From Cyclonatronum proteinivorum (lineage in GTDB: Bacteria > Bacteroidota > Rhodothermia > Balneolales > Cyclonatronaceae): DNA of 64,000 nucleotides. Every line of letters starts with the position of its first letter. Positions within the stretch are counted from its first letter, which is position 1. The DNA lies in assembly GCF_003353065.1 (NCBI RefSeq), contig NZ_CP027806.1:1505353-1569352 (forward strand), read 5' to 3'. Position numbers and translations under genes: made by a program. The notes under the pieces are model-generated. The model was not told the origin of the DNA. It saw only the letters and a program-made list of their open reading frames with translations, and ran no database searches. Of this stretch, positions 28,972-52,621 are shown one piece after another.

Positions 28972-29015
28972 ATCCGGCAAAAGAAGCCCCGCTATTGTGG
29001 CAGCGCTGATTCCGG

Positions 29016-34007: not shown

Positions 34008-34066
34008 AGTATGGGTTGCCTTCAAATCGGACTATCCGGAGGAGAAACAGATTTACCTGTTGCTAA

Positions 34067-34292
34067 CCCGCATTATTCACATTTAAACTGAATTTATTTG
34101 CTAAATGTAAGTTTAAATTTGGCTTAGTGAAAAACACCGGTAGCCCGAATTTAAGTGTGGTGTGAAGACTGCGAAATTTCCCCGCTGGCTACGTTGAAGC
34201 TGAAAACTCATGCTCAGGGTACTTAGGTACCCCTCCGCTGAGTTTTCAGCTTCGCCTTGCCAGCAAGAAAATTTCTTGGTGAATAATGCGGG
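34067..34292. mobile_element. MITE-like element, copy A (226 bp, 14-bp inverted termini, CTAA duplication)
   Basis: Terminal inverted repeats CCCGCATTATTCAC (34067-34080) and GTGAATAATGCGGG (34279-34292) are perfect. CTAA directly flanks both ends (34063-34066 and 34293-34296), a 4-bp target duplication. No coding frame is present. The interior holds a nested palindrome: GCTGAAAACTCA (34199-34210) pairs with TGAGTTTTCAGC (34239-34250), and GGGTAC with GTACCC inside it. Related copies are at 43495-43750 and 52434-52621. Confidence 0.9.
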
Positions 34293-34415
34293 CTAAACCG
34301 GTGGCGGTGGTGGCGGGGGTGGAATCGGTACGGAGAGAGGCGACATAAGCGCGACGGAAACATCCGAATCAAATGTGGTTACCCGCAATCCCGGTTTTTG
34401 ATAGGACTCTTTCAT
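34293..34415 (-). CDS. 40-residue 'Y-x-KP' peptide ending in a polyproline run
   Basis: A complete small frame from the ATG at 34415 to the TAG at 34293-34295 encodes MKESYQKPGLRVTTFD..., then SVALMSP and a tail of I, eight Pro and V. The N-terminal pattern MK-x2-Y-x-KP-x-L-x-V resembles numerous very short Bacteroidota proteins of unknown function that start MKKxYxKPxLxV (recalled from knowledge, not searched). It lies 88 bp downstream of the S9 peptidase gene on the same strand. Its stop codon lies within the CTAA target duplication of the MITE, so the insertion did not change the coding end. A role as a structural, signalling or modified peptide cannot be told from sequence. Confidence 0.55.
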   Translation of the reverse strand: MKESYQKPGLRVTTFDSDVSVALMSPLSVPIPPPPPPPPV

Positions 34416-34503
34416 ATAGTCAGCTTTTTGTTAAAATTAACACCCTTCCGGATGATACCAATACGTTTCTGATTTTGCTACAATATGGCGGACCTGAAGC
34501 TAT

Positions 34504-36639
34504 TTATTTCAGGTATTTATCCAGCCAGCTGTAGAACTCGCGGTGCCAGAGCAGGCTGTTCTGCGGGGTGAGAATCCAGTGGTTTTCGGTGGGGAAGAGC
34601 ACCATGCGGCTGTCGATGCCGAGGCGCTGTGCCGCGGTGAAGGCCTGAAAGCTTTCAGTGACCGGCACCCGGAAATCGAGTTCGCCGTGAATGATGAGGA
34701 TGGGTGTATCCCAGTTTTGGACGAAGAGGTGGGGCGAGTGCGCGTCGTAGCTCACCGGGCGCGGCTCTTCCCAGTAGGAGCCGCCGAGGTCGAAGTTTAC
34801 GAAAAACATTTCCTCGGTGGTGCCATACATGGCCTCGAGGTGGAACACCCCGGCATGGGAAATGAAGGCGCTGAAGCGGCCTTCGTGGTTGCCGGCCATC
34901 CAGAAGACGGAGTAGCCGCCGAAGCTTGCGCCTACGGCACCGAGGCGGTTTTCATCGACCCAGGGTTCTTCTTTGACGTTATCGATGGCGCTGAACAAAT
35001 CCTGCATGGCCTGTCCGCCCCAGTCGCCGCTGATTTGGCGGTTCCATTCTTCGCCGAAGGAGGGAAGTCCGCGGCGGTTCGGGGCGACAACAACGTAGCC
35101 GGCGTTGGCCATCACCTGGAAATTCCAGCGATAGGAGAAGAATTGTGAGACGGTGCCCTGCGGGCCGCCCTGTGCGTAGAGAAGGGCCGGGTACTGCTGC
35201 GATTCATCGAAATTCGGGGGGAGGATGACCCAGACGAGCATTTGTTTGCCGTCCGTGGTTTCGACCCAGCGTTGGGTGACCTCGCCCAGGGTGAGGCTGC
35301 CCATCAGCTCGTCGTTGATGTGGGTGAACCGGTCCATGGCGCCGTCTTCGGCGGCAACGAGGTAGAGCTCGACCGGCGAGGACATGGACATGACGCCCGC
35401 AACGAGCACCGGGTTGCCGTCGGTATCGAGCCCTTCTTCGAAGCCGGTTACATCGTGGATGCCGTCGGTGAGCTGCCGTACCGGCGGGAACATGGAGCGG
35501 GCAAGCATGTTCAGCTCGAAAATCTGCACGGTCGCTTCGATGCCGCTTGTGATGTAAATCCGGCTGCCGTCGCGGCTGAAGCGCGCAGCGTTCATGTTGC
35601 CGTCAAAGCCGGTGCTGAGCTCGCGGGTGTTGCCGGTTTCCAGGTGCAGCTCCATGAGACGGTAGCGGTCGCTCTCGTACATGGGGGTGACCATCTGATT
35701 CCAGATCATGGTGTTGCCGTCGGGGCTGAAGGCAGGGTAAAAATCGTAGCCGGGGTTGGGGGCAGTGAGGTTGCGTGTTTCGCCGGTGCGCAGGTTGTAG
35801 AGGTAGATGTCGGAATCGGTGCTGTAGGCGTACTCGGTGCGGTCCATTTTTTTGGAGGTGTAGGCGATCAGCTCACCGGAGGGATGCCAGGCAATTTGTG
35901 AGGAGCCGCCGAAGGGCTTGAGCGGGGTGTCGTAGGGCTGACCGGCCATGATGTTGAGCGGCTCGCCGGTGAGTGCGCCGTCGGCATAGGGCGCAATATG
36001 CAGGTGACGGTAGGTGCCGTCGTGCCAGCTATCCCAGTGGCGGTACATGAGGTTGTCGATGATGCGGACATTCGCGAGCGGGTACTCGGGGTAGAGGTCG
36101 AGGGAGGTGGGATCAACGCGCACATTCCGCACAAAGGAGAGGTGCCGGCCATCGGGGCTGTACTGCACGAACATCACGCCGCCTTCGATGTCGGTCACCT
36201 GACTGAGGTAGGTGCCGTCGGGGTCCATTTCGTGGAACTGACCGCCGCGCATGAAGCCGATGCGGTCGCCGGACGGATGCCAGACCGGCGCAGAGGCCGA
36301 AGCACCGGTAGTAAGCTGCATGATAATGCCGGAACCGATATCACGCCGGTAGATGTGGGTGGACGACGAATTCTCGTCAACCGACATATAGGTGATGGTG
36401 AACAGCACAGAGCGGCCATCGGGCGACACAACGGGATTTCCAACGCGCCCGAGCTCCATCATGAGCTCCGGGGAGAGTCCGCTGCGGGTATCAGTATCCT
36501 GGATCGTGTTTGCTGTAGCTTGACAGCCGGGAAAGAGGATGAAGGCGAGAAGGATGGTCAAACCGGTTATGATCGTTTTTGGAAACGATACTTCGTTATA
36601 ACGAAATGGTAAAATGGGTGCTGGGTACAGTTTCATCAT
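34504..36639 (-). CDS. S9 family prolyl oligopeptidase-like lipoprotein peptidase
   Basis: About 711 residues. A hydrophobic segment ending in the lipobox LFPGC suggests a lipid-anchored periplasmic protein. The N-terminal two-thirds form a TolB/WD40-like beta-propeller (repeats such as [39 protein letters not shown]). The C-terminal alpha/beta hydrolase has the nucleophile in [11 protein letters not shown], an Asp in HGELDFRVP and a His in TENHWI. It should remove dipeptides or acyl-amino acids from peptides. I use the ATG at 36639 (MMKLY); the frame extends to a TTG at 36675. It is one of three large peptidases in this 9-kb stretch. Confidence 0.88.
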
Positions 36640-36798
36640 GGAGATCTGTTTGTGGGAGGGATAAGGAATTGGCAATAGGTAATAATAATGCTATGCTGCC
36701 AAAAAAGCGTCAGCGGGATTTGCGCTAATTTTTTACTCCGTTTTCCTTGTAAATATGCTTTTGTATTGCCAAATCAACAATATCTACCAGCTTAGAAA

Positions 36799-36892
36799 CC
36801 CAAAAAAGCAAGGGACTCAAATTATGATTTGGGAGCGCTGATCTGCCACGAAAGACCGTGATGCTCACGGAGTTTCCCCCACAAAAAAATAA
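36799..36892 (-). repeat. Dispersed 3'-end element, copy 4
   Basis: On the minus strand the blocks are TTTTTTTGTGGGGGAAACT, CGTGAGCATCACGG, TCCCAAATCATAATTTGAGT, CCCTTGCTTTTTTGGG. It is nearly identical to copy 2 over about 65 bp. It lies beyond the terminator of the minus-strand DUF4097-like gene, in that gene's orientation, and upstream of the S9 peptidase gene. Confidence 0.8.
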
Positions 36893-36947
36893 ACTAAGAA
36901 ATGGCTGTGCGTTATGTTCAGGCCGACCTGCAGCGGGTTACGGAAAC

Positions 36948-36978
36948 AAAAAAAGGGAATGCGGTTGATCGCATTCCC
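36948..36978 (-). terminator. Terminator of the DUF4097-like gene
   Basis: GGGAATGCG (36955-36963) and CGCATTCCC (36970-36978) form a perfect 9-bp stem, followed on the minus strand by a T-run complementary to 36948-36954. Confidence 0.92.
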
Positions 36979-37001
36979 GGAGTATGGAGCGGTTTTGGGG
37001 A

Positions 37002-37979
37002 TTATTCGAAGGTCAGGGTTGCGCGTCCGCCGGAGGTGCGCAGCTCTACTTTTGTTGCGCCCTTGCCGAACGTGCCGCTGACGCTGTTGCGGTTGACATT
37101 GCTGTTCTGCATAACGCTGTGGAGGTTGCCCTGAAGGTTCGCACTGCTGCCGCGCAGGCTCAGCTCAAGGCCGGGGCTGTCGGCTGCCGTGAGGGTGGCC
37201 GGCAGGTTGAGGCTCACATTGCCGCCGCTGGTGCGCAGGTTGAGGATTTCGCCGGGTTCGCGGACCGAAGCGGTGATGTTGCCCCCGGAGGTTTGCGCTT
37301 CAACGGAGCCGTTCACGTCGCGGATGTTGATGTTTCCGCCGGATGTACGCACGTTGAGGCGGCCATTGCTGTCGTTGAGGGTAATGCGTCCGCCGGAGGT
37401 GCGGGCGTCGAGCTCACCGCTGACTCCGGTAATCTGAATGTTCCCGCCGCTCGTTTGTGCGCGGATGGTGCCGCTGGTTTGCGTGAGGGTGATGTTTCCG
37501 CCGCTGGTACGCAACTGGTGTCCGCCGTCAAAGCCGTTGAGCGAAATGTTGCCTCCTGAGGTTCTGCCGTTTGTGCTGCTTGCTGAGGGGGCAAGAATGT
37601 GGTAGGAAATGCTGACATTGGCGGATGATGAGCGACCGAAAAATGAGAAGCCCGAGCTGTTTCTGCGCTGGGCTTCGACCGAAATCTGATTGTCGCTCTC
37701 GTTGAAAATGAGCTCAGCATAGCTGTCAAGCTCGTCGGCGCTGAGGTATGCTCGTCCCTTTCGGGCGATGACATGTATGACGACTTCATCGCGGTTGTGT
37801 GTTTCAAAGGTGATGTTGCCGCCCGAAGTAGCCGCACTGAGCTGCGGACTGCTGCCGGTTCGGAAGGTTTGGGTGAGGGTTGTGTTATCCGGCTGCGCAT
37901 GCACATAGGCAGGGAGTGGCAAAAGAAGGAGGGCGAAAACGGAAAACAGAAGCGTGCATTTGGCTTTCATGGAAGACAT
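37002..37979 (-). CDS. Secreted DUF4097-like beta-solenoid protein with 18-residue TSGG repeat
   Basis: A 325-residue exported protein; the signal peptide ends near VHAQ (residue about 29). From about residue 138 the motif TSGGNI recurs with an exact 18-residue spacing five times, then once at 20. In total there are nine TSGG motifs, including one near the mature N-terminus and one at the extreme C-terminus (TSGGRATLTFE). This is typical of DUF4097/DUF2807-type right-handed beta-helices, here more regular than usual. The family is of unknown function and is thought to be adhesin-like or a companion of signalling proteins. Two ATG codons (37979, 37970) could start it. The gene is monocistronic with its own terminator. 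Confidence 0.8.
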   Translation of the reverse strand: MSSMKAKCTLLFSVFALLLLPLPAYVHAQPDNTTLTQTFRTGSSPQLSAATSGGNITFETHNRDEVVIHVIARKGRAYLSADELDSYAELIFNESDNQISVEAQRRNSSGFSFFGRSSSANVSISYHILAPSASSTNGRTSGGNISLNGFDGGHQLRTSGGNITLTQTSGTIRAQTSGGNIQITGVSGELDARTSGGRITLNDSNGRLNVRTSGGNINIRDVNGSVEAQTSGGNITASVREPGEILNLRTSGGNVSLNLPATLTAADSPGLELSLRGSSANLQGNLHSVMQNSNVNRNSVSGTFGKGATKVELRTSGGRATLTFE

Positions 37980-38154
37980 CAGGTTTAGTTTGAAGGAATA
38001 CAGGAACTAACTGGAGTTCGCATTTTACGCAGGTTTTTTTGGAAATGTTGGAGTAGGACGGACTTATTTTTCAGAGGTCAAAACGGGGCCTGACTGAACC
38101 TTGAGAAGCCCATGCCGGTTTGGAAGTCATCATCAAAAAACAAAAAAAGTACGC

Positions 38155-38778
38155 ATGAATTCTTTTTTAACCTTTCGCCTGATCCTGCCGGTTTATTTAT
38201 TTCTTTTTTTTATCGGGGGATGTGCTTCCGGACCTGAAGAAGAGCGGGTGCCCGCTGAACTTGCTTTTGCTGAGGAGGCGGAAGCGGTGCAGGAGAGGCC
38301 CCATCTGCAGGTAGAGCCGCTAAGCGTGGAAGAAATCGCGGCCTTTCGGGAACTCACTGATCGCTCCGTAATTGATCGCGTAACACGTACCGAACGCGAG
38401 TGGCGGGAGCTGCTGACCCGTGCGGAATACAGGATTTTGCGCAATGAAGGCACCGAGCTGCCCTGGCGCAACGCTTATAACAGTGAAACCCGGGAAGGGA
38501 TTTATTACTGCCGTGGCTGTCATCATCCGTTGTTTTCATCTGAGGTGAAGTATGATTCAAGGACCGGATGGCCGAGCTTTTGGGAGCCGTTGGCGAAAAT
38601 CAGCACCGATTACCGCGAAGACCGCTCCTTTTTTATGGTAAGGACGGAGGTCATTTGCGCGCGCTGCGACTCTCACCTTGGACATGTGTTCGATGATGGT
38701 CCTGAGCCGACCGGTCTGCGGTATTGCATGAATTCTGCCGCGATGATCTTCGTGCCACAAGAAGTAGCGGCAAAGTGA
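38155..38778 (+). CDS. msrB: Lipoprotein peptide-methionine (R)-S-oxide reductase
   Basis: A 207-residue protein beginning with a lipoprotein signal (lipobox FIGGCAS, Cys about residue 22), a linker of about 50 residues, and then an MsrB domain (about 75-205). The domain shows EREWRELLT, GTELPWRNAYN, the zinc Cys pairs YYCRGC and ICARC, GWPSFWEP, HLGHVFDDGP and the catalytic Cys in RYCMNSAA. It reduces the R form of methionine sulfoxide in proteins. Lipid anchoring means it protects or repairs envelope proteins, needing an extracytoplasmic electron source. The ATG at 38155 is chosen because it gives the lipoprotein signal; longer in-frame starts do not. Confidence 0.93.
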   Translation: MNSFLTFRLILPVYLFLFFIGGCASGPEEERVPAELAFAEEAEAVQERPHLQVEPLSVEEIAAFRELTDRSVIDRVTRTEREWRELLTRAEYRILRNEGTELPWRNAYNSETREGIYYCRGCHHPLFSSEVKYDSRTGWPSFWEPLAKISTDYREDRSFFMVRTEVICARCDSHLGHVFDDGPEPTGLRYCMNSAAMIFVPQEVAAK

Positions 38779-38878
38779 GGCCTTTTGGCTGCCAGAAGTT
38801 TTACAACAGCTGGCATTAAGTGCGCGTATTTTGAAGTCACTGTTCACCCGAATTTATATCCAAGTCCGAAAAACTGTT

Positions 38879-40864
38879 ATGGCGCGATTCTATACGGTAG
38901 CAACCCTTCTGCTCACTTTTCAACTGCTTTGGGCATGCTCATCATCAGAAACGATCATCAAAGAAGAAACACCCCAAAACCTGATGTTGCTGCACGACGT
39001 CAGGCCCATTCCGTATCCGATAGATATTCCTGAAGAATATCTGGCTGCCATAGCCAACGGTACCCGAACGGAGACAGGGGCACCGGGGGAGCATTTCTGG
39101 CAGCAATATGCTACCTACGATATCGCAGCGACGCTCAACCCCGATACCAAAAAGCTCGAAGGCAGCATGAAAGCCGTGTATATGAATCAGTCGCCGGATG
39201 AACTCGGACGGCTTCACATGGAGCTGTCGCTGAACGTTCACCGCAAGGGTGTTGTGAGGGCGCGTGCGCAGGATGTGACCGGCGGAAAAGAAATTCAGTC
39301 CGTAACGGTTAACGGAAGAACGCTGACGGAAGGCCGCAACCCGTTTCCGGCTTATGAAGTGCAGGGCACGCAGCTCATTATTTATCTCGCAGAAGCTCTG
39401 CCGAGCGGTGGGGAGGTCGAGGTTGAAATTGACTGGACGGTTGATATACCGCGGCGGGGTGCTTCAGGACGCAACGGCTGGGCCGACGACCTTTTCTTCT
39501 TGGGGTACTGGTATCCGCAGTTCAGCGTGTATGATGATGTGTACGGATGGTTTACCGAGCCTTTCCGCGGGAATGCCGAATTTTATCACGGGTTCGCAGA
39601 CTACCGCCTGTCCATTACCATGCCGGATGACTGGGTTGTTATGGCGACCGGCGAATACCTGAATCCCGAAGAGACGCTTGCACCGCATGTGCTGGAGCGG
39701 TATATCGCAGCGCAGGAAAGCGACGAGGTGATACACGTAATCACCGCCGAGGACTTCGGCAGAAACGCAACCGCTGAAAGTGAAAACGGCATGCTCACCT
39801 GGCGCTTCGAAACGGAGCGTGTACGCGACGTGGCCTTCAGCGCTACCCGGAAATCTTTCTGGGACGCGCGCCGTACCCCGGTCGGCGATCTGAATGGCGA
39901 CGGTGAAACCAACTATTCGCTCATGAACGCCTTCTACCGTGAGCTTGCCCCGCTGTGGACCGAGGTAGCCGAGTACAATGCGCACGCCATCAGCTTTCTG
40001 TCGGAGTTCACCGGTTTCCCGTATCCGTGGCCGCACATGACATCGGTGGAGGGCTCTACCATCATTGGTGGCGGCATGGAATACCCGATGATGACGCTCA
40101 TGGGCGATTACAATCAGCGGGGCGCGATGGCGCTGTACAGCGTAACCGCACACGAACTCGCGCACATGTGGTTCCCAATGATTGTGAGTACCAACGAGCG
40201 GATTTACACCTGGATTGATGAGGGCAACACGGTTTTTGCGACGGATGAGGCGCGGCACAATCGTTTCCCTGATGTAGATAAACACGCTTCGACACAGCTG
40301 AACTATATTTCTTTTGCCCGTTCAGGGCGCGAGGGTCCCATTATGCGCTGGTCCGATTTTCATTATTCGCAACAGGCATACGGCATTGCTTCTTATCCCA
40401 AGCCGGCTTCTGTGCTGGTTGCGCTGCGGGGGGTAATTGGCGAAGAAGCATTTCGGGAAGCATACCAAACCATGGTACACGAGTGGGCCTGGAAGCAACT
40501 TTACCCATGGGATATGTTCCGCACATTTGAGCGTGTAAGCGGCATGGACCTGTCCTGGTTCTGGCGGGCCTGGTACTACGAAACCTGGACGCTTAACCAA
40601 AGCATACATCAGGTATATGTTGAAGACGGACATACGGTAATCAGTATACGTGATTTGGGGAACGTGCCCATGCCGGTATTGCTCCGGATAACCCGCGCAA
40701 CCGGTGAGGTAAACGAAGGCCGCATATCGCACGAACACTGGCTGACCGGTACCCGGGAGGCTGAATACCGCGTACCTTACACCGATGTACTTCGGGTAGA
40801 AATAGACCCCGACCGGCACTTCCCGGATATCGACAGAAATAATATGGTATATGACATTAGGTGA
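38879..40864 (+). CDS. M1 family metallopeptidase, lipoprotein
   Basis: About 661 residues; the N-terminus has a lipobox (LLWACSS), suggesting a membrane-anchored periplasmic or surface enzyme. The aminopeptidase-type exopeptidase motif GGGMEYP is at about 397-403, in place of GxMEN. Zinc is bound by H425-E426-x2-H429 and E448 in the HEXXH-x18-E arrangement (HELAHMWFP... WIDEG). The C-terminal part is helical. It should cleave N-terminal residues from peptides. The ATG at 38879 gives the lipoprotein signal; a TTG at 38831 would add 16 residues. A second M1 enzyme lies 0.9 kb downstream. Confidence 0.88.
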   Translation: MARFYTVATLLLTFQLLWACSSSETIIKEETPQNLMLLHDVRPIPYPIDIPEEYLAAIANGTRTETGAPGEHFWQQYATYDIAATLNPDTKKLEGSMKAVYMNQSPDELGRLHMELSLNVHRKGVVRARAQDVTGGKEIQSVTVNGRTLTEGRNPFPAYEVQGTQLIIYLAEALPSGGEVEVEIDWTVDIPRRGASGRNGWADDLFFLGYWYPQFSVYDDVYGWFTEPFRGNAEFYHGFADYRLSITMPDDWVVMATGEYLNPEETLAPHVLERYIAAQESDEVIHVITAEDFGRNATAESENGMLTWRFETERVRDVAFSATRKSFWDARRTPVGDLNGDGETNYSLMNAFYRELAPLWTEVAEYNAHAISFLSEFTGFPYPWPHMTSVEGSTIIGGGMEYPMMTLMGDYNQRGAMALYSVTAHELAHMWFPMIVSTNERIYTWIDEGNTVFATDEARHNRFPDVDKHASTQLNYISFARSGREGPIMRWSDFHYSQQAYGIASYPKPASVLVALRGVIGEEAFREAYQTMVHEWAWKQLYPWDMFRTFERVSGMDLSWFWRAWYYETWTLNQSIHQVYVEDGHTVISIRDLGNVPMPVLLRITRATGEVNEGRISHEHWLTGTREAEYRVPYTDVLRVEIDPDRHFPDIDRNNMVYDIR

Positions 40865-40901
40865 CTTGAAAAACCGAAGAAAAAGTAATACATTATGTAG
40901 T

Positions 40902-40929
40902 ACAATTGGGTTAAGTAAAACCTAATTGT
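40902..40929. promoter_or_regulatory. 11-bp-arm palindrome upstream of the vapBC-like operon
   Basis: ACAATTGGGTT (40902-40912) and AACCTAATTGT (40919-40929) are inverted repeats with one G-T mismatch and a 6-nt spacer. There is no T-tract, so a terminator is less likely than an operator for the RHH antitoxin encoded 78 bp downstream. Confidence 0.45.
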
Positions 40930-41006
40930 CACTAATCCTGCATGGGTGCATTCCCCCCATTTCAGGTTTAAGCCAACACATCCGTAAATGTATAAGCCCC
41001 TAAGCC

Positions 41007-41267
41007 ATGACTTCCGTCCGTCTCCCCAAAGAACTCGAGCAAAAGCTTGACAGCCTTGCAGAGGCCAAACAAATCAGCCGCTCAGCGCTCATCAAAGAAG
41101 CGCTCGTGGCCTATCTCGAACAAGAAGAAAGTCACAGTCAGCCTTATCTCGTCGGTGAGCCGCTCTTCGGCAATTATGGCAGCGGCACTACAGATAACGC
41201 TGTGAGCTACAAAACCAAGCTTCGTCAAAAGCTCGCCCGTAAGCACAACAAATCCTACCCTTACTAA
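41007..41267 (+). CDS. Ribbon-helix-helix antitoxin (VapB/CopG type)
   Basis: An 86-residue protein. The N-terminal ribbon-helix-helix (TSVRLPKELEQKLDSLAEAKQISRSALIKEALVAYLEQEE) binds DNA. The basic, flexible C-terminus (KTKLRQKLARKHNKSYPY) would wrap the toxin. The PIN-domain gene starts 9 bp later, the usual antitoxin-first order. Autoregulation through the palindrome upstream is likely. Confidence 0.85.
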   Translation: MTSVRLPKELEQKLDSLAEAKQISRSALIKEALVAYLEQEESHSQPYLVGEPLFGNYGSGTTDNAVSYKTKLRQKLARKHNKSYPY

Positions 41268-41276
41268 GTCTGAAAA

Positions 41277-41723
41277 ATGGCCAGGAAAGGCAGGTCTACT
41301 ATCATCCCGCTTCGGTACATTCTGGTTGATGCAGGGCCCCTGATCGCCCTGTTCGACCGGGATGACAGCTATCATCAGCTGGTGTTGGATTACATCAAAA
41401 CGTTTAACGGAAAGCTCATCACAACCTGGCCGGTGCTGACGGAAGCCCTGCACATGCTGGGCTTTCATGTGAATGCACAGCTTGATTTGCTCACCTGGGT
41501 AGAAAGAAACGGGGTACAGATTTACGAAATGAGTTCGGATGTTATCCCTGATATCAAAACCTATTTCGACAAATACCGCAATATTGAGGCAGACCTTGCG
41601 GATATCAGTTTACTCGTTGCCGCTGATCAGATGAATGTTACGCAGATATTGACCATCGACCGCGATTTCAATATTTATCGCATGCCCGACGGCGAATACC
41701 TCCATAATGTGCTTCAATACTGA
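41277..41723 (+). CDS. PIN-domain toxin (VapC type ribonuclease)
   Basis: A 148-residue PIN protein. The acidic metal-binding residues are visible: D18 in LVDAGPLIALF, a Glu in VLTEALHML, an Asp in EADLADISLL and one in LTIDRDF. VapC toxins cleave RNA, often tRNA or rRNA loops. It is paired with the RHH antitoxin 9 bp upstream and is followed 5 bp later by an M1 peptidase gene. No function in common with the latter is suggested. Confidence 0.87.
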   Translation: MARKGRSTIIPLRYILVDAGPLIALFDRDDSYHQLVLDYIKTFNGKLITTWPVLTEALHMLGFHVNAQLDLLTWVERNGVQIYEMSSDVIPDIKTYFDKYRNIEADLADISLLVAADQMNVTQILTIDRDFNIYRMPDGEYLHNVLQY

Positions 41724-41728
41724 ATTTT

Positions 41729-43414: not shown

Positions 43415-43494
43415 AATTTTTTTTTCTGGTGAATGGGTATGCGACGCTGCGCCCGTGTTACCTTAATAAAAATAATTGAACCCGTTAGATTTAA

Positions 43495-43750
43495 CCCGCA
43501 TCATTCACAATAATACAGGATTTATTTGCTAAGTGTAAGTTTAAATTAAGCTTAGCGAAAAAAAAACTGGTAGTCCAATTTTGAGTGTGGTGTAAAGACT
43601 GCGCTCCGAGCGAAGCGATTCCCGCGCAGCGAAATTTCCCCGCTGGCTGCGTTGAAGCTGAAAACTCATGCTCAGGGTACTCAGGTACCCTTCCGCTGAG
43701 TTTTCATCTTCGCCTTGCCAGCAAGAAAATTTCTTGGTGAATAATGCGGG
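43495..43750. mobile_element. MITE-like element, copy B (256 bp)
   Basis: Ends CCCGCATCATTCAC (43495-43508) and GTGAATAATGCGGG are the same inverted termini as copy A with one mismatch. The interior is colinear with copy A, including the GCTGAAAACTCA...GGGTAC...GTACCC palindrome, but it has about 30 extra bases (CTCCGAGCGAAGCGATTCCC region). Flanks TTAA and TTCA are not an exact duplication. It lies between two plus-strand genes. Confidence 0.88.
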
Positions 43751-43819
43751 TTCATATGAACTATCAGCGGTCAAATCTTCTTAAGTAGGGCGAGTTATCA
43801 CCAACAATCAGAGGGCGTT

Positions 43820-45556
43820 ATGATGGTATCTATTCGCAATTTGTATTCAATACTACCCGCAGTATTGGTCACGATGTTTGTGCTTCTTTATTCCGCTGAA
43901 ACCGTGCAGGCGCAGGATCAGGAGCTTATTGTTACGGAAGCTTTTCCCGGGGTGAATGTAAATCAGATATTAGGCCTGCAACCGCAGCCTGGTTCTGATA
44001 ATCTGTTCATTGTTTCGCAGCAAGGGCGGATTTTCAGGCTTGACAGGAGTGCGCAAGTGCAGCAGCTTACGACCTGGCTCGATCTTTCTTCGCAGCTCAT
44101 TTCAGGAGGGGAGCGCGGTTTGCTGGGTTTGGCGTTTGATCCTGATTTTGAGCAAAACCGCCGCTTTTATGTGAACTACACCATTGCCAATCCGCTAAGG
44201 ACCGTCATATCCAGATTTACCACCGATGAAAACGGGGATCCGGATCTTGCGAGCGAGCAGCAGCTTCTCATATTCAATCAGCCCTTCAGCAATCACAATG
44301 GCGGTGATATTGCCTTTGGACCTGACGGGTTTCTTTATATTGCCTCCGGGGATGGCGGAAGCGGCGGGGATCCACAAAACAATGCGCAAAATCCGGACAA
44401 CCTTCTCGGGGCTATGCTGCGGATTGATGTCAACACGGACGATGCAAGCTATCTGATTCCGGAAGACAATCCTTTTGTAAACGGAGGCGGCATGCCTGAA
44501 ATATTCGCCTGGGGCCTGCGAAATCCGTGGCGGATTTCGTTTGACCGGGAAAGCGGCGTTCTCTGGACCGGTGATGTAGGCCAAAATGCCTGGGAAGCCA
44601 TCCATATTATCGAAAACGGCAAAAATTACGGCTGGAATATTCTCGAAGGTTCCAACTGTTTCCCGCCCGGCTCAAACTGCGACCCTGAAGGATTGGAGCT
44701 TCCGGTTTTTGAGTACAATCACAACAACGGCGACCGCTCCATCACCGGCGGGTTCGTCTATCGCGGTCAGAAAAATCCTTCTCTTTATGGCAAATACATC
44801 TACGGGGATTTTATTTCGGGTCGGGTCTGGGCGCTTGCCTTTGATGAAGAAACCTTTGAAGCCGTATCCAACACAGAGCTCATCAATCTTCCGATGAATA
44901 TCTCATCTTTCGCGCAGGACAGGGATGGCGAGCTTTACATTTTGGGCTATAACAACGGGGGCGTATTTCGGATTGTCACAACACCCGAGACAAGTGCCGT
45001 TACACAGCCGCTTGCTGAGGATTCCGTACCTGCCACATTTATGATGAGCTGGGATGAGATTCCCGGAGCCGACACCTATCAGTATCAGATCGGAAATGAA
45101 TCATCCTTCGAAAACATCCTTGCAGAAGGCGAAACAGCATTGGTGTCAACGGAAATCACCGTAGCCGAAACGGGTCAGGCGGCATGGGCGCGGGTGCGCA
45201 CGCAAAATGAAGCCGGCAGCGGGGCATGGAGTGAAGCCGTCCCGTTTTTTATCGAAGATCCGGTTTCGGTTCCGGTCTCGGCCGAGCTTCCGCGGGAAGT
45301 TGTGTTGCACCCAAGCTATCCCAACCCCTTCAACCCGACCACAACCCTCACATTTGAACTGCCTGAGCGCGCAGAAATCAGGCTGCAGGTTTTTGATTCG
45401 ACGGGCAGGCTGGTTTCTACCCTTGCCACGGGTACCGTTCAGGCAGGAACCCATCAGGTACGTTTTGATGGCAGCGGATTGGCAAGCGGCCTGTATTTTG
45501 TGCGGCTGCAAACGGGCGATATGGTCATGACGCGCAAAATGACCCTTGTAAAATAA
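43820..45556 (+). CDS. Secreted PQQ-dependent sugar dehydrogenase-like protein with sorting tail
   Basis: A 578-residue exported protein. The signal peptide ends near VQAQ (residue about 33). Residues about 40-375 match the glucose/sorbosone dehydrogenase beta-propeller family: QGRIFRLDR, GERGLLGLAFDPDF, FSNHNGGDIAFGPDGFLYIASGDGG, RNPWRISFDR, and GDVGQNAWEAIHII. An Fn3-like module follows (about 390-475). The last 85 residues are a type A sorting domain (SYPNPFNPTT, VEVFDSTGR-like, GLASGLYFVRL). It should oxidise a sugar on the cell surface or in the medium if it binds PQQ; this is family knowledge, not shown by the sequence. Confidence 0.85.
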   Translation: MMVSIRNLYSILPAVLVTMFVLLYSAETVQAQDQELIVTEAFPGVNVNQILGLQPQPGSDNLFIVSQQGRIFRLDRSAQVQQLTTWLDLSSQLISGGERGLLGLAFDPDFEQNRRFYVNYTIANPLRTVISRFTTDENGDPDLASEQQLLIFNQPFSNHNGGDIAFGPDGFLYIASGDGGSGGDPQNNAQNPDNLLGAMLRIDVNTDDASYLIPEDNPFVNGGGMPEIFAWGLRNPWRISFDRESGVLWTGDVGQNAWEAIHIIENGKNYGWNILEGSNCFPPGSNCDPEGLELPVFEYNHNNGDRSITGGFVYRGQKNPSLYGKYIYGDFISGRVWALAFDEETFEAVSNTELINLPMNISSFAQDRDGELYILGYNNGGVFRIVTTPETSAVTQPLAEDSVPATFMMSWDEIPGADTYQYQIGNESSFENILAEGETALVSTEITVAETGQAAWARVRTQNEAGSGAWSEAVPFFIEDPVSVPVSAELPREVVLHPSYPNPFNPTTTLTFELPERAEIRLQVFDSTGRLVSTLATGTVQAGTHQVRFDGSGLASGLYFVRLQTGDMVMTRKMTLVK

Positions 45557-45813
45557 GCGGTTTATCATACTTCAATTGGTTGCCCCGGAATAAATTAAGT
45601 CTTCTTAACGGCGGCCGGAATTCGTACATTACGTTATTATAATATTTGACTTTTCAATATTAAGACCCACAAGAACTAACTTTTTTGGGATAATTCAGCT
45701 GGTGTTTAAATCCACGTAACATAGAAGCGGTAGCTTAGAAAAATCAGAGCATTGCACAAACCGCGCGGTCAGAGTGGCCGTGCAAACAAACGATCACAAA
45801 ACCAAGTAGCACT

Positions 45814-48800
45814 ATGAACAATCATGTTACCAAAGGCTTCGGGAAGCGATTTCCGGGGTTTTTATTGTGGCTGGTCCCCGTTTTTCTGATGGGATTTGCC
45901 GTACAGGTTCAGGCGCAATATACCGGTTCGGGCGCGTTTACGCAGCTCAACGGGCTTGCTGAGCTTGAAGACGGCTATTATGTCGTAACCAACGCCCCCG
46001 GCGAATTTGCCATGAACAGCGCACATACCGGTGTTTTTTTACCTGAAACGCCTGTTAATCCTGTTGATGGAATACTTCAAAATCCTAACGTAGCCGATGT
46101 GTGGCTGATTGAAGCTGACGGTTCTTCCTGGACCATCTTCAGTGAGGCCACGCAGCAATTCGTGTCTTATACCGGTCCCGGGAATAATGTTCAGGTTGTG
46201 GATGAAGTTACCTCTGATAATGACCGCTGGAATTTTGATTTTGCGGATGGTGAATTTGTCTTAACCAATGCAGAGATTACCGAGAGAACGTTGCGCTACA
46301 ACCCCTCATCGCCAAGGTTTGCAACCTACGCTTCAGGTTTCGGACAAAATCTGAGCTTATTCAGACTGGGTGATGACAATGGTACTGAGCCAAGTCCTAT
46401 TGATCCATTTGCGTTGCTTACCCCTCCTAACAACACAAATCTGCCCGTTTTCGAAGGCGGTACCGATGACGTAGTTATTGAGTGGGAAGCAGCCGAAGGT
46501 GCAGATACCTACACCTGGCTTGCCGTAGCTCAGGGCGGCAGCTTTGATGAGCCGCTTCTGGCCATCCCAGCCGACAATGGCGGAGCCGCAACAAGCCTCA
46601 CCCTCACCACAGGTGCCATCTATGATGTACTTGCAGGTCTTGGAATCGAAGAAGGATCTGTTGCCAACCTTACCTGGACTGTAGAAGCAACCGCAGGTGA
46701 CGATTCGCGCCTTGCCATTCAGCAATGGGCCATCAACATTGTAGCGCCGGTTGTACTTGCTGACATTGAAGCCCTGCGCGCAGCCGATACCGGCTCTACC
46801 GTCTATGCTGTAGCCAATGAAGCTACTTTTCTTGGTGGCGACGGTTTCCGGAACACCAAGTTTTTCCAGGACGCTTCCGGATTTGGAATTCAGATAGATG
46901 ATGCCCCTGGCATTATCACATCAACCTATGAAATCGGTGATAATGTCAACTTGCTGCACGGAACATTGGGCGCATTCCAGGGACAGCTTCGCCTGACGCC
47001 GTTTGTAGATTACGGCGCGGCCGTATCCTCCGGAAATGCAATTGACCCCCTTGAGCGCACACTTGATGAACTTTCCTTTGATGATCAGGCCCGTCTGATC
47101 GTAGTTCGTAATGTAGCCTTCGAAAACGCCGGTCAGAATTTTGGCGGTGGCGGTTCTATTACCTCCATCACCGACCCAAGCCTCGACGACTTCACAGGTC
47201 GCCACCGCAATGTGTTTGGCGGTTCTGACATCACCGGTTCACCTATTCCGGAAGGTGAATGGGATATCGTTGCGGTTGTACAGGAAAACAATGCAGGCCT
47301 GAATATTGCGGCACGCAGCCTCGCTGATTTCAGCCCCGCTGATGACGATCAGGCTATTGCCGCCTTCAACCTTCTGTCACCTGCGGACGGTACTTCGCTG
47401 GTAACGTCCCCTGATAACGAAACCGAAGTAATCATCACCTGGGAAGAAGCTGAAGGCGCGGACACCTATACCTGGCTCGCCGTCCTCGACGGCGGTGATT
47501 TCAGTGACCCGCTGCTGGCCCTTCCGGCAGATGATGAAGGCGCAGCGACAACGCTGACGGTAACCGTTGCCGCCCTTGACGGCATACTCGAAGGACTCGG
47601 CGTAGCTGAAGGCGAGAGTGTGAACCTGCAGTGGACAGTCAATGCTGAAGCCGGTGATGACAGCCGCCTGGCGAATATGCCGTTTGGCATCACCCTTGAG
47701 CGCGACAGCGAACAGCCTGCTCCGGCCGCATTCAGCCTGCTGAGCCCGCCTGACAACACCCGTCTGCCTGTTTTTGAAGGTTCGGATGATGCAGTTGTCA
47801 TTGAATGGGAGGCTTCAGAAAACGCCACAAGCTACACCTGGCTGGCCGTCCCCGATGGCGGTGATTTTAGCGACCCGCTGCTGGCCCTTGCAGCTGATGA
47901 GGAAGGAACAGCGAAAACGCTCACCCTCACAAGCGGTGCCATCTATGATGTACTTACATCACTCGGCATTGAGGAAGGAACCATAGCAAACCTTGAGTGG
48001 ACTGTCGAAGCCGCCAATGGCGGTCTTACCCGTCTTGCCGATCAGCAATGGAATATCAGCCTTGTCGCGCCGGTAGTTGTTGCCGATATCGAATCGCTCC
48101 GCGGTGCTGAAACCGGCAGCACAATGTATGCCGTAGCCAATGAAGCTACTTTCCTTGGTGGCGACGGTTTCCGGAATACCAAGTTTTTCCAGGACGCTTC
48201 CGGATTTGGAATTCAGATTGATGACCAGCCGGGCATTATCTCGTCAACCTACGAAATCGGTGATAATGTGAACATGCTGCATGGAACATTGGGCATATTC
48301 CAGGGACAGCTTCGCCTGTCGCCGTTTGTTGACTTTGGTGCGGCCGTTTCCTCCGGTAATGAAATTGAGCCCCTTGAGCGTACGCTTGATGAGCTTTCCT
48401 TTGATGATCAGGCCCGTCTGATCGTGGTTCGCAGTGTTTCCTTCCAGAACGCCGGTCAGAATTTTGGCGGTGGCGGTTCTATCACCTCCATCACCGACCC
48501 GAGCCTCGACGGCTTCAATGGTCGCCATCGCAACGTGTTTGGTGGTTCTGACATCACCGGTTCACCCATCCCGGAAGGCGAGTGGGATATCGTTGCAGTG
48601 GTACAGGAAAACAATGCGGGTCTGAATATTGCCGCCCGTAGTCTGGCTGATTTCAGTCCTGCAGAAGCGGCTATTGCAGCCTTTGACCTCCTTGCGCCTG
48701 CTGACGGTACAAGCCTTGTAACCTCACCTGACGACGATACCGAAGTGGTCATCGAGTGGGAAACTGCCGAAGGTGCTGAAACCTACACCTGGCTTGCTGT

Positions 48801-50961
48801 AACTGCCGGTGGTGATTTCAGTGATCCGCCGCTTGCTATTCCTGCTGATGATGAAGGCGCAGCTACAACGCTTACCGTGCCTGTTTCAGCCCTTGACGGC
48901 ATTCTCGCAGATCTCGGTATCGAAGAAGGTGGTATTGCAAACCTGCAGTGGACTGTTCGTGCTGAAGCCGGTGACGAAACCCGCCTCGCCAACAGCCCGT
49001 TTGCCATTACGCTTGAGCGTGCTTCTGAACTGCCTGTACCGGCAGCTTTCGACCTGCTCAGCCCGCCAAATAATGCACGTATTGCTGTATTTGAAGCAAA
49101 CGATACCGAGGTCGTCGTAGAGTGGGAAGCAAGCGAAAACGCACAGACTTACACCTGGCTTGCAACCCTGCCAGAGGGTGATTTTGATGAGCCGCTGCTC
49201 GCTATTCCTGCCGATGCAGACGGTGCTGCAACAACACTAACCCTCACTTCCGGCGCTGTTTATGCAGCCTTGACGGGTCTCGGTATTGATCCCGGCACAA
49301 CGGCAACCATTCAGTGGACCGTTAGAGCGGAGAACGATGACTTGACCCGCCTTGCCAATCAGGCATGGACGCTCGTGATCGATGTGCCGCTTGAGGTTAC
49401 CCTCAACGAAGCCCGTGTGCTGCCCGCGAATACGGTTGTGAGCACGTCAGGTCTCGTAACAACACCGGATTTCGGCTTCAACGCTGCGGAGTTCTACTTC
49501 CAGGATGAAGACGGCGGGATGAAAGTCCGCTGGCCCGGCTTTGGGGGCGGAAACACCGACACCCCGTTTGCTGCCGGTCAGGAAGTTCAGATCGTTGGTT
49601 TTATGACGGAGCGTTTCCAGGAAATAGTGATTCAGCCAACAGCTTTTGAAATTCTTTCAGAGGATAACACGCTGCCTGAAGCCAACCCGATCATCGATTA
49701 CGATACGCAGTGGGTGTTCGACAGTGCCGATCAGGGTCGCCGCGTTACCATCCTTGAAGTTTCGCTCGTAGATCCGGATCAATGGCCAACGGAGCCGATC
49801 TCAGCCGGAAGCGGTGTAACCGTTGAAGCGATTGACGCAGATGGCAACATCTATGACATCCGGATTGACCGCGATGAGTCTGAATTCGAAGCAAGCCCGG
49901 TACCGCCAGCAGTCTTTAACCTCTCAGGTGTGCTTGGCCGCTTCAACGAAAACGCGCAAATCTTCCCCTTCTTCGCTTTCGAACTGGAAGAAGTAGCGGA
50001 GTCACCGCGCGTTCAGCTCATCCACAACGCAGCTGATCCGGCCCTTGCCAACGTTGATGTGTATGTTGATGGCGGACTCCTGTTCGGTGATGTGCCTTTC
50101 CGCGGTGCAACGCCGTTCTTTGAAGCTCCCGCCTCTTTCACCGTAAGCCTCACCGCTGCCGGTGCACCCATCGAAGACGCCGTATTTGAAGCCGAAGTTG
50201 AGCTCGATGGCGGCGAATCTTACTATATCATCGCACAGGGTGTACTTGATCCTGAAGCCTTTGATTCGAATCCGAACGGCATCAGCACAGCCTTCACCCT
50301 CGATATTATCGAAGGGGCTGTCGAAGGGGCAAGCGTACCCAACGCCTTCGATTTCATCATCTACCACGGCGTTACCGACGCTCCTGCAGTAGATGTTGTC
50401 GCGCGCGATCTTGCGGCCCTCGCCGAAAACCTCTCCTACACCGACGTGAGTGAATTCTTCATTCAGGTCCCGGCTGATGTTTACACGCTTGATGTGAACC
50501 CTGCCGGAACACCAGACCCGGTGTTCAGCTTTGATGCCGATCTCTCGGCCTTTGCCGGACGTTCCGGAGTAGTGCTTGCGAGCGGTTTCCTCGACGCTTC
50601 ACAGGGTGAAAGCTTTGGCCTCCTCGCGGTACTCGATACCGGCGAAGTTGCCTTCCTAAACCCATCTACAAGCCTCGGGCCCATTGACGGTGTTCCTGTA
50701 GCATTCGAGCTCAGCCAGAACTACCCGAACCCGTTCAACCCCACAACGCAGATTCAGTACGCCCTCCCCGAAGCCACTGATGTACGCGTTGAAGTCTTCA
50801 ACATCTCAGGTCAGCGTGTAGCAGTACTCGTTAACGGTCAGCAGGCCGCCGGGGTACACAACGTAACCTTTGATGGCAGCCGCCTCTCAAGCGGCGTGTA
50901 CCTGTACCGCATACAGGCAGGCAGTTTCCAGCAGGTCCGCAAAATGATGCTCGTGAAATAA
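45814..50961 (+). CDS. Large secreted modular protein (Fn/Ig-like and OB-like modules, DUF4397, sorting tail)
   Basis: 1715 residues. The signal peptide ends at VQAQ (about 34). Five SusE/Fn3-like modules start at residues about 199, 518, 640, 957 and 1079 (F-x-LL-x-PP/PADxTxLV..., EWEAxExAxTYTWLA). Three OB-like segments lie at about 316-500, 755-945 and 1200-1330. A DUF4397-like domain (VQLIHNAADPALANVDVYVDG) lies at about 1395-1610. A type A sorting domain (YPNPFNPTT) covers 1630-1715. No catalytic motif was identified. Order: A-OB-B, A-OB-B, A-OB; the first two units are near-identical DNA copies. It is probably a cell-surface or extracellular adhesion or carbohydrate-binding scaffold (inference). 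It ends at a strong terminator. Confidence 0.8.
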   Translation: MNNHVTKGFGKRFPGFLLWLVPVFLMGFAVQVQAQYTGSGAFTQLNGLAELEDGYYVVTNAPGEFAMNSAHTGVFLPETPVNPVDGILQNPNVADVWLIEADGSSWTIFSEATQQFVSYTGPGNNVQVVDEVTSDNDRWNFDFADGEFVLTNAEITERTLRYNPSSPRFATYASGFGQNLSLFRLGDDNGTEPSPIDPFALLTPPNNTNLPVFEGGTDDVVIEWEAAEGADTYTWLAVAQGGSFDEPLLAIPADNGGAATSLTLTTGAIYDVLAGLGIEEGSVANLTWTVEATAGDDSRLAIQQWAINIVAPVVLADIEALRAADTGSTVYAVANEATFLGGDGFRNTKFFQDASGFGIQIDDAPGIITSTYEIGDNVNLLHGTLGAFQGQLRLTPFVDYGAAVSSGNAIDPLERTLDELSFDDQARLIVVRNVAFENAGQNFGGGGSITSITDPSLDDFTGRHRNVFGGSDITGSPIPEGEWDIVAVVQENNAGLNIAARSLADFSPADDDQAIAAFNLLSPADGTSLVTSPDNETEVIITWEEAEGADTYTWLAVLDGGDFSDPLLALPADDEGAATTLTVTVAALDGILEGLGVAEGESVNLQWTVNAEAGDDSRLANMPFGITLERDSEQPAPAAFSLLSPPDNTRLPVFEGSDDAVVIEWEASENATSYTWLAVPDGGDFSDPLLALAADEEGTAKTLTLTSGAIYDVLTSLGIEEGTIANLEWTVEAANGGLTRLADQQWNISLVAPVVVADIESLRGAETGSTMYAVANEATFLGGDGFRNTKFFQDASGFGIQIDDQPGIISSTYEIGDNVNMLHGTLGIFQGQLRLSPFVDFGAAVSSGNEIEPLERTLDELSFDDQARLIVVRSVSFQNAGQNFGGGGSITSITDPSLDGFNGRHRNVFGGSDITGSPIPEGEWDIVAVVQENNAGLNIAARSLADFSPAEAAIAAFDLLAPADGTSLVTSPDDDTEVVIEWETAEGAETYTWLAVTAGGDFSDPPLAIPADDEGAATTLTVPVSALDGILADLGIEEGGIANLQWTVRAEAGDETRLANSPFAITLERASELPVPAAFDLLSPPNNARIAVFEANDTEVVVEWEASENAQTYTWLATLPEGDFDEPLLAIPADADGAATTLTLTSGAVYAALTGLGIDPGTTATIQWTVRAENDDLTRLANQAWTLVIDVPLEVTLNEARVLPANTVVSTSGLVTTPDFGFNAAEFYFQDEDGGMKVRWPGFGGGNTDTPFAAGQEVQIVGFMTERFQEIVIQPTAFEILSEDNTLPEANPIIDYDTQWVFDSADQGRRVTILEVSLVDPDQWPTEPISAGSGVTVEAIDADGNIYDIRIDRDESEFEASPVPPAVFNLSGVLGRFNENAQIFPFFAFELEEVAESPRVQLIHNAADPALANVDVYVDGGLLFGDVPFRGATPFFEAPASFTVSLTAAGAPIEDAVFEAEVELDGGESYYIIAQGVLDPEAFDSNPNGISTAFTLDIIEGAVEGASVPNAFDFIIYHGVTDAPAVDVVARDLAALAENLSYTDVSEFFIQVPADVYTLDVNPAGTPDPVFSFDADLSAFAGRSGVVLASGFLDASQGESFGLLAVLDTGEVAFLNPSTSLGPIDGVPVAFELSQNYPNPFNPTTQIQYALPEATDVRVEVFNISGQRVAVLVNGQQAAGVHNVTFDGSRLSSGVYLYRIQAGSFQQVRKMMLVK
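46408..47730 (+). repeat. Internal tandem duplication, unit 1 (A-OB-B modules)
   Basis: Encodes residues 199-639. It is repeated head-to-tail by 47731-49047 with an offset of about 1320 bp (440 codons), keeping the frame. The OB-like core is the most similar part (for example 46810-47340 against 48130-48660). Confidence 0.85.
47731..49047 (+). repeat. Internal tandem duplication, unit 2 (A-OB-B modules)
   Basis: Second copy of the 46408-47730 unit, residues 640-1078. A third, strongly diverged A-OB unit follows from 49048, suggesting two rounds of duplication of different age. Confidence 0.85.
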
Positions 50962-51007
50962 GCACACACACGCATCATCAGCGCAAAGCTGAAGTACGCA
51001 CATAACC

Positions 51008-51046
51008 AAAGCGCCGGAAGGATTTTTCCTTTCGGCGCTTTTTTTT
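51008..51046 (+). terminator. Terminator of the 1715-residue protein gene
   Basis: AAAGCGCCGGAAGG pairs with CCTTTCGGCGCTTT around an ATTTTT loop, followed by a T-run that is also the start of dispersed element copy 5. Confidence 0.9.
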
Positions 51047-51127
51047 GGGTAAAACTCAGAGAACATCAAGGTCTTGGGGGACAGATTCTAAGCCCCCAAA
51101 CCAAAGATAAAGGCGTTGCTTTTTGGG
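51039..51127 (+). repeat. Dispersed 3'-end element, copy 5
   Basis: Blocks: TTTTTTTTGGGTAAAACT, GAGAACATCAAGG, CCCCCAAACCAAAGATAAAG, CGTTGCTTTTTGGG. It begins in the T-tract of the terminator of the upstream plus-strand gene. The remainder of the gap to 51455 holds no gene; 51220-51300 is AT-rich. Confidence 0.75.
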
Positions 51128-51455
51128 AGCATAACTGCCCGTTTCAGCTTTCAGCCATCTGCGGACGTATCCCGCTTCCGGGGTTCCTGACTGTAATTGG
51201 TTTAGCGCTATCTCTATGTTTTGTTGTATAATAGCGCAAGAATAAATATATTTTGAAAGCTGAGGGCGAAAGCGTGATTTGAGACGTACGCATCAAGTTT
51301 ATGTTGTCTCAATCTTCACAGCCGGTGAGCTTAACAGAAAAACAGCTCAGAAAAAAACAACTAAAAGAAGCTTTGAGGAGGGATCAGGTTTGTACCAGAA
51401 CATCACCCGGAACTTGAACAGCAACTTCACACAAACATAAACAGCCCATCTTATT

Positions 51456-52301
51456 TTGAATGAAACCGAACACAAAAGGGACAGCCTGATACAGCAGCCC
51501 GAAAAATGGATATCCAAAATTATCAGGCTGACCGGATTCAGAAATCCGGAGGATGTAATTTACATGCTTACGCAAGGCTACTTTCCGTATATGAACTACG
51601 GTATGTTTCCGGTACAGCTTTCCGAAAAGTTCAGCGGTCACCCGGAGGAGGCTGTCAATTACCTTCAATTGTTTGAACTGGGGCGGTCCTTTTATCCCAA
51701 GCAGGCGGATATTCTTGAAATAGGCTGCGGTTTCGGCTACGGAGCCCAACTTGTGGCGGGTGCAGCAAAGCCAAAAACCCTGCTTTCTATAGATAAATCC
51801 CAAAAAGCCATTTCGTATGCCATCCGGTATATGGATACCCAAAAAGTCACTTACAGGCATGAAGCTTTTTCCGACCGCATAGCGCCTGAGAACAGCTTAG
51901 ACGTCATCTACACCGTCGAGAGTGGCGGAAAATTTCCGCGGGAGGAAGACTTTGAAACCGCCATCCGGCTCCTGAAAAAAGGCGGCATTTTTCTGATTGC
52001 GAACATCAATACCCGGGAAGGTCTTGAAAATAAGCGCAGGTTTGCGGCCAAAGCCGGCTTTACCTGTCATGCCGCGCAAGATGTTACACCACAGGTAAAG
52101 GCATATTTGTCCTCAGATAAAAAGATGGCATCGTTTAATGCGTCCATAAATAAAATGCCGTTCTATGCCCCCGTGCTATGGCGGTTGTTTCGCAGCAGTA
52201 TCAAAGAATTCGCCCGCTTGCCCGGCAGCAAAAGTTTTGATCAGCTGGGTGTATCAGAATTTTACTATCACTTCTGCTTCATTAAAACAGAGGATAAATA
52301 A
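51456..52301 (+). CDS. SAM-dependent methyltransferase
   Basis: A 281-residue class I methyltransferase. The SAM-binding motif I is ILEIGCGFGYGAQL (about residue 88-101), followed by the acidic end of beta-2 (LLSIDKSQKAI), then LDVIYTVESGGKFP and LLKKGGIFLIANI (motif III). The N-terminal 85 residues (VIYMLTQGYFPYMNYGMFP) resemble small-molecule or glycolipid O-methyltransferases such as those of mycobacterial PGL synthesis. The substrate is unknown. The start appears to be TTG; the nearby ATG at 51460 is in another frame. It stands alone. Confidence 0.8.
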   Translation: MNETEHKRDSLIQQPEKWISKIIRLTGFRNPEDVIYMLTQGYFPYMNYGMFPVQLSEKFSGHPEEAVNYLQLFELGRSFYPKQADILEIGCGFGYGAQLVAGAAKPKTLLSIDKSQKAISYAIRYMDTQKVTYRHEAFSDRIAPENSLDVIYTVESGGKFPREEDFETAIRLLKKGGIFLIANINTREGLENKRRFAAKAGFTCHAAQDVTPQVKAYLSSDKKMASFNASINKMPFYAPVLWRLFRSSIKEFARLPGSKSFDQLGVSEFYYHFCFIKTEDK

Positions 52302-52433
52302 GCTTATGTTTGATTTCAGGCCTGCCACTTAACACTTCGCGACTGCAACAACTATCGGGATAAACAAACCGCAGGAGTTTGCCTACGAAAAGGCGCTTGC
52401 TGAAATAAAGGCGGGACGAAAACGAACGCATTC
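52302..52433. pseudogene. Possible coding relic left of MITE copy C
   Basis: The stretch 52351-52430 reads as a well-composed helical peptide (INKPQEFAYEKALAEIKAG) with no start. Bases 52334-52360 recur imperfectly at 52640-52666 on the other side of the MITE. This could be a decayed gene interrupted by the element. The evidence is weak. Confidence 0.25.
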
Positions 52434-52621
52434 TAAGTACCCTGAGCATGAGTTTTCAGCTTCAACGCAGCCAGCGGGGAAATTTCACTTCGTGAGAATC
52501 GCTACGCTCGGTGCGCAGTCTTTACACCACACTCAAATTTGGGCTACCGGTGTTTTTCGCTAAGTCAAATTTAAATTTTCCACTTAGCAAATAAACCCTG
52601 TTTAGTTGTGAATAATGCGGG
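52434..52621. mobile_element. MITE-like element, copy C (truncated, reverse orientation)
   Basis: Relative to copies A and B it is inverted. The end GTGAATAATGCGGG (52608-52621) is intact; the other end is lost, the copy starting inside the central palindrome (AAGTACCCTGAGCATGAGTTTTCAGC). It keeps the ~30-bp segment present in copy B and absent from A. The rest of the gap (52622-52894) has only short frames, including a 21-codon one at 52633-52698. Confidence 0.85.

Follow-up and report, generated by a model that had tools for sequence, protein, structure and literature searches.

Three copies of a short, non-coding repeat lie in the window analysed here, a 64,000-nucleotide stretch of the Cyclonatronum proteinivorum chromosome, and we find that they are miniature inverted-repeat transposable elements (MITEs) inserted by transposition, and not a conserved regulatory site, because they carry target site duplications (TSDs) and because the orthologous gap of a congener is shorter. 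We put the probability that these elements are non-autonomous transposons of the IS1380 family at about 0.88. Their internal palindrome is a hairpin with a conserved tip, the hairpin is under constraint across the order Balneolales, and the tip recurs in other phyla.

The initial annotation had placed the three copies and had described a shared central palindrome, an exact CTAA duplication around the first copy and the absence of any open frame, and re-reading of the sequence agrees on each of these points. Copy A is a full-length element of the 226-bp form (34067–34292, plus strand) with exact 14-bp terminal inverted repeats (TIRs), CCCGCATTATTCAC, at 34067–34080 and 34279–34292, and the CTAA duplication is seen on both flanks (34063–34066 and 34293–34296). 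Its hairpin module (GAAATTT...AAATTTC) spans 34173–34275 on the plus strand, with the tip GCTCAGGGTAC-TTAG-GTACCCCTCCGC; our RNA model R1 matches it at 34172–34292 with 139.9 bits, and the whole copy, folded as RNA, has a z-score of −9.5. Copy B is a full-length element of the 256-bp form (43495–43750, plus strand) whose termini at 43495–43508 and 43737–43750 have one and zero mismatches to CCCGCATTATTCAC and whose flanks, TTAA (43491–43494) and TTCA (43751–43754), look like a decayed TSD, being identical at three of four bases. It contains a 28-bp optional module (GCGCTCCGAGCGAAGCGATTCCCGCGCA, 43601–43628, plus strand) that copy A is missing, followed by the hairpin module (43631–43733, plus strand); the R1 match at 43630–43750 is the highest-scoring of all (145.3 bits), and the z-score is −8.1. 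Copy C is a half copy in reverse orientation (52434–52621, minus strand; inverted-repeat arms I1, I5 and I6) that runs from the left TIR to the hairpin tip, where it is broken off, and so has a single terminus, at 52608–52621. The central palindrome, GCTGAAAACTCA...TGAGTTTTCAGC, is present as inverted repeat I9, and no open reading frame (ORF) of at least 80 amino acids overlaps any of the copies. Allowing two mismatches, the terminus occurs seven times in the window against 0.75 occurrences expected, a count reached in none of 100 shuffles.

These copies belong to a dispersed family. On the chromosome, a single contig of 4,294,247 bp, CCCGCATTATTCAC occurs with at most one mismatch at 217 sites and the reversed control pattern at none, and BLAST with the 226-bp element returns at least 40 full-length copies of 87–100% identity; we estimate the family at roughly 100 copies. 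Elements range from 74 to 282 bp, with size classes of 226, 254 and about 280 bp that follow from the 28-bp optional module, together with shorter deletion forms. Median identity among copies is 88%, and the closest pairs reach 97–99%. An exact 4-bp TSD flanks 53 of the 65 copies that were read with their flanks, where about 0.25 would be expected by chance, and 46 of these 53 fit YTAR; the 53 comprise TTAA 20, TTAG 13, CTAA 12 and other sequences 8. By crude ORF calling 58 of the 65 copies are intergenic, without strong preference for the orientation of the neighbouring genes.

The locus of copy B provides a comparison with a relative. Congener G005 retains the same gene pair, coding for an M1 peptidase and a glucose/sorbosone dehydrogenase, with about 170 bp between the two genes as opposed to 406 bp. 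The difference is close to one element length, and judged by gap length the locus fits an empty site; neither DNA search nor the RNA model finds the element in G005. The initial annotation had named an RNA gene or regulatory region present at orthologous sites in all relatives as the alternative to transposition, and at this locus, the one site compared, the G005 gap rules it out. Such an inherited region, which we regard as scarcely credible for the family, would account for a conserved structure with compensatory changes, but is at odds with the TSDs, the many unrelated sites, the gap in G005 and the lack of any Rfam match at the gathering threshold. With 14-bp TIRs, TSDs at unrelated sites, a non-coding length below about 300 bp and an insertion missing in a relative, the elements have the features by which a MITE is recognised.

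To which transposon the family owes its movement is indicated by its ends. The initial annotation had pointed to the IS1380 family on the basis of the 4-bp duplication, and to the IS1380 transposase encoded in the window at 1465–2823 as a possible source; the family stands, the source does not. Judged from sequence, a transposase of the IS1380 family very probably mobilised the MITE, and this family is the best-supported candidate because some of its insertion sequences have ends and TSDs that match. Specifically, genome G444, of the same order, contains a 1702-bp IS1380 element (L189:1381-3082) with perfect TIRs (CCTGCATTTCTCAC) and the TSD CTAG, plasmids of Pseudomonas putida and Stutzerimonas carry annotated IS1380 elements whose CCCGCATTTCTCAC TIRs are perfect and whose TSD is CTAG, and a Rhizobium plasmid carries one with imperfect TIRs (CCCGAATCTCTCAA/CCCGCATTTCTCAC) and the TSD TTAG (CTAG/TTAG duplications being seen on the elements of L189, L216, L217 and L218). 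These IS1380 ends (CCCGCATTTCTCAC, CCTGCATTTCTCAC) recur without change in MITEs of the family from other genomes, and the MITEs of genomes G058 and G067 end in exactly CCCGCATTTCTCAC. In genus g25, degenerate IS1380s carry an end (CCCGGATTATTCAT) one base away from the MITE end of the same genome, G076 (CCCGGATTATTCAC). Across the group the terminus is CCYGNATTWYTCAY. The transposases with such ends group together: those of L188, L189, L216 and L217 share 50–62% identity with one another and about 25–32% with those of L190 and L191. IS1380 elements (NCBIfam NF033539) and the MITEs are thus alike in having CCYGNATTWYTCAY-type ends and a 4-bp duplication, of the CTAG/TTAG type on the annotated elements; they differ in that the MITE lacks a transposase and shares only the 14-bp ends, its hairpin being absent from the insertion sequences.

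Two results weigh against this assignment. None of the IS1380 elements found ends in exactly CCCGCATTATTCAC, the nearest ends being one to three bases off, and a profile search of the C. proteinivorum genome with the DDE families PF13701 and PF01609 returned no IS1380 of the matching kind. Its nine PF13701 matches consist of six of the same IS1380 subgroup as the window's transposase and three weak IS4 matches. Because the genome encodes only this different subgroup, its MITE copies are probably stranded, and by the same profile search probably immobile at present. Among 40 stretches inspected, drawn from 100 listed sites of the 217, no pair of termini encloses a transposase in this genome, and none of its PF01609- or PF13701-family insertion sequences was seen to end in the MITE terminus. 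Two long pairs of termini in other genomes, considered as autonomous elements (2.6 kb at G003:C412 and 2.2 kb at G084:C42), contain ordinary genes and no transposase.

That the window's own IS1380 (1465–2823, plus strand; NF033539, 290.7 bits) moves the MITE is very unlikely. It is of the same broad family as the proposed mobiliser, but its six copies in the genome have CCTNAATCCGTGAG ends and, where readable, 5-bp TSDs, and by BLASTP its transposase has no similarity to those of L188, L189, L216 or L217 and 24% identity to the divergent L190. We give just as little credence to a transposase of the IS5 group. IS5 likewise duplicates YTAR, and an IS5-family transposase is encoded in this genome, but the MITE terminus is not at the ends of any of the genome's IS5, IS4, IS982 or IS701-like elements, and it is IS1380 elements that carry both the MITE-type terminus and the same TSD.

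The palindrome seen in the initial annotation proved to be a hairpin of about 103 nt that is conserved across the order, covaries and has relatives in other phyla, which had been overlooked. In relatives across the order most elements are 226–230 bp long, with about 100 bp on the left that are poorly conserved and about 121 nt on the right that form the imperfect hairpin. In an alignment of 20 sequences, 19 of 34 pairs show changes on both sides and 95.3% of cells are paired; the covariation score of 0.363 compares with 0.110 in shuffles and is equalled in none of 500. Within the C. proteinivorum genome the hairpin diverges from the consensus by 3.4% and the left part by 13.0%, with the lower value in the hairpin for 53 of the 55 copies (p = 1.6e-9). 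In a sample of 394 genomes of the phylum, a covariance model run under strict filters recovers the hairpin in 15, each of which belongs to the same order. Its imperfections are likewise kept across the order: a CTCA/TTCCG internal loop, an invariant T-G pair and TGCGTT/GCCTTG loops. At permissive E-values, Rfam returns only miRNA-type chance matches to the hairpin. We also observed shorter elements of 144–164 bp that have the same TIRs and a different, shorter hairpin (L180:479-636 and L181:1273-1416 in G047; L179:1262-1423 and L179:2470-2633 in G003), which are possibly separate MITE subfamilies.

The tip of the hairpin, with the consensus GCTCARSGTAC-N4-GTACSYTTCCGC, extends beyond the order. 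A scan with the pattern CTCARSGTACYNNNGTACSYTTCCG, for which by our arithmetic about one chance match is expected per 257 billion bases at equal base frequencies, found at least 119 stretches, and 16 of the 80 that were listed are labelled Betaproteobacteria (Duganella, Uliginosibacterium, Burkholderiales), Myxococcales, Desulfobulbaceae or Clostridia/Eubacteriales. Outside the Balneolales the tip is accordingly found in Betaproteobacteria, Myxococcota, Desulfobacterota and Clostridia; a metagenome-assembled genome (MAG) labelled Chitinophagaceae (L282) contains an element of the Balneolales type. A stricter pattern matched 11 times in Duganella phyllosphaerae and not at all in 397 other Pseudomonadota, and there were no matches in 2.9 million viral contigs searched for a viral origin of the tip. 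In the other phyla the tip caps long intergenic hairpins (z-scores of −3.6 to −10 for the ten tested), around which we found no IS1380 ends. In the same genome, the arms of a hairpin pair better with each other than with those of other copies in Myxococcales (58.2 versus 29.5) and Duganella (53.9 versus 42.3), an advantage not seen in Desulfobulbaceae (37.0 versus 36.5). The hairpins lie between rplJ and rplL and between grpE and dnaK in Clostridia (genes identified by Pfam), and between aceE and aceF and between tuf and rpsJ in Duganella (genes named by eye from translated gene ends), where they directly follow stop codons. Neither an Rfam family for the tip hairpin nor, in a literature search by sequence string, any relevant report of the tip was found, and as far as these searches go a hairpin tip shared between phyla appears to be undescribed. 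The Desulfobulbaceae MAG (G478; L353, L362, L367 and L371) also has four repeats that start with GATGGCGTCGCAAAAACTCCGATCTC and have the same GTAC-N4-GTAC tip. These resemble repeats that are common in Deltaproteobacteria.

We propose that an IS1380 transposase acting in trans, its identity suggested by the matching ends, would bind the 14-bp ends (CCCGCATTATTCAC in this genome, CCYGNATTWYTCAY in the group) and would have inserted the element at YTAR-type sites, thereby producing the 4-bp duplication that is seen at the insertions. The hairpin may then fold in mRNA and be processed or protect 3′ ends, which could make intergenic insertions tolerable or useful. Because the same tip sits, without IS1380 ends, between operon genes of unrelated phyla, we tentatively suggest, at somewhat less than even odds and by analogy, that the hairpin is a REP- or Correia-like structure acting on the processing or stability of transcripts of neighbouring genes. 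With slightly more reserve still, we suggest that the tip may mark a so far undescribed class of long intergenic hairpins in at least four phyla, served by a common recognition factor (a nuclease, an RNA-binding protein or a DNA-structure protein), and that in the Balneolales an IS1380 MITE would have captured it and would spread it over the chromosome. Several observations tell against a role in transcripts. Departures from pairing of the G-U type are about as frequent as A-C departures in the order (22 and 24), because of which RNA function is not favoured, and number 11 against 19 in the C. proteinivorum genome; in addition, the element inserts in both orientations, not only within operon-like pairs but also between genes that converge or diverge. 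In the other phyla A-C departures exceed G-U departures (96 versus 48), and G-U would thus dominate on the opposite strand, but these counts are inflated by fixed positions and related copies and decide neither for nor against an RNA.

The main alternative, which we consider rather unlikely, is that transposition depends on the hairpin in cis, as a cruciform or single strand that a transposase or host factor recognises and that aids synapsis, so that its constraint reflects the element's own success. The hairpin does adjoin the right TIR, at the end where copies within the genome are best conserved, most elements in the order keep to 226–230 bp, a G-U count not above that of A-C is as DNA would give, and copies break at the tip (copy C; G000:132369), as nucleases acting on DNA hairpins would cut. 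IS1380 elements with matching ends, however, have no hairpin, and the tip is found in other phyla without IS1380 ends. Hairpin-less derivatives of 74–146 bp with intact TSDs also exist, which indicates either that the hairpin is dispensable for transposition or that these copies are later deletions, and which weighs against our favoured explanation too. A further explanation, in which palindrome correction by template switching in replication produces the covariation as a side effect and the structure has no function, we hold to be improbable. Such correction is known for quasi-palindromes, and a few double changes are seen even among copies of one genome; yet it would erase the imperfections that persist throughout the order, whose retention rules it out as the sole cause, and the tip sequence is retained across phyla.

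Several known repeats resemble the family in part. Correia/NEMIS elements (Correia repeat enclosed elements; CREE) of Neisseria, with transcripts that RNase III binds or cleaves (PMC2649163, PMC10969869), are also short, intergenic and hairpin-forming, with TIRs and about 100–250 copies, but CREE termini are reported with TA (PMC2229807), whereas the Balneolales family has a 4-bp YTAR duplication and CCCGC termini. The Chunjie MITE of Geobacter uraniireducens (178–235 bp, dozens of copies, conserved TIRs, direct repeats, one copy inside an operon; PMC10969869) is alike by its description. Repetitive extragenic palindromes (REPs) and bacterial interspersed mosaic elements (BIMEs) are intergenic palindromes of several phyla, often downstream of genes (PMC3733652), but REPs are 20–40 bp long with GTAG or CGTC tags, and the hairpin described here is about 103 nt long, has a GTAC-N4-GTAC tip and lies inside an element with TIRs and TSDs. 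Both MITEs and IS1380 are already known; we did not find an IS1380-derived MITE family in the literature searched (ISfinder lay outside this search), and IS1380 goes unmentioned in a 2024 review of prokaryotic MITEs.

Other repeats and features accompany the family. A second dispersed repeat of about 100 nt (TTTTTTGGGGGAAACTCCGTGAACATCACGG...CCCAAATCAWAAT...CCTTGCTTTTTGGG), unrelated to the MITE, has five copies in the window (3622–3707, minus; 9322–9422, plus; 29010–29108, plus; 36800–36893, minus; 51027–51124, plus) and at least one more at L088:1411. An IS701-like element with a 478-amino-acid transposase (165 bits against a cut-off of 170) is present at loci L077–L083 (G000:C1 at 1604k, 2896k, 327k, 384k, 488k, 2465k and 3696k), inserted for the most part in small palindromes (CCCTTTCAGGG, GCCCCTACAGGGC); two insertions are at the MITE hairpin tip and one is beside the second repeat. 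At two of these loci, L079 and L080, a MITE and another palindrome are each split into reciprocal halves, which suggests an inversion of about 57 kb between two IS701-like copies. The window also contains an Acido-Lenti-1 RNA (RF01687; 3363–3408, minus strand; 48.4 bits, above the gathering score), here in a Balneolales genome, and an ORF of 1715 amino acids (45814–50961) with internal repeats of about 300 nt at 46465, 47352, 47718, 47788, 48669, 48739 and 49105.

MITEs are usually taken to be degenerate transposon ends with arbitrary filling. The family described here provides a tangible example of MITEs derived from IS1380, and its filling has changed less than part of what surrounds it, covaries throughout the order and carries a tip that recurs between housekeeping genes of unrelated phyla, away from any IS1380 end. 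If confirmed, this would reveal a shared structural module that is borne by a MITE in one phylum and occurs by itself elsewhere, and the long-standing question of what purpose REP- and Correia-like hairpins serve would become testable by way of one conserved recognition motif.

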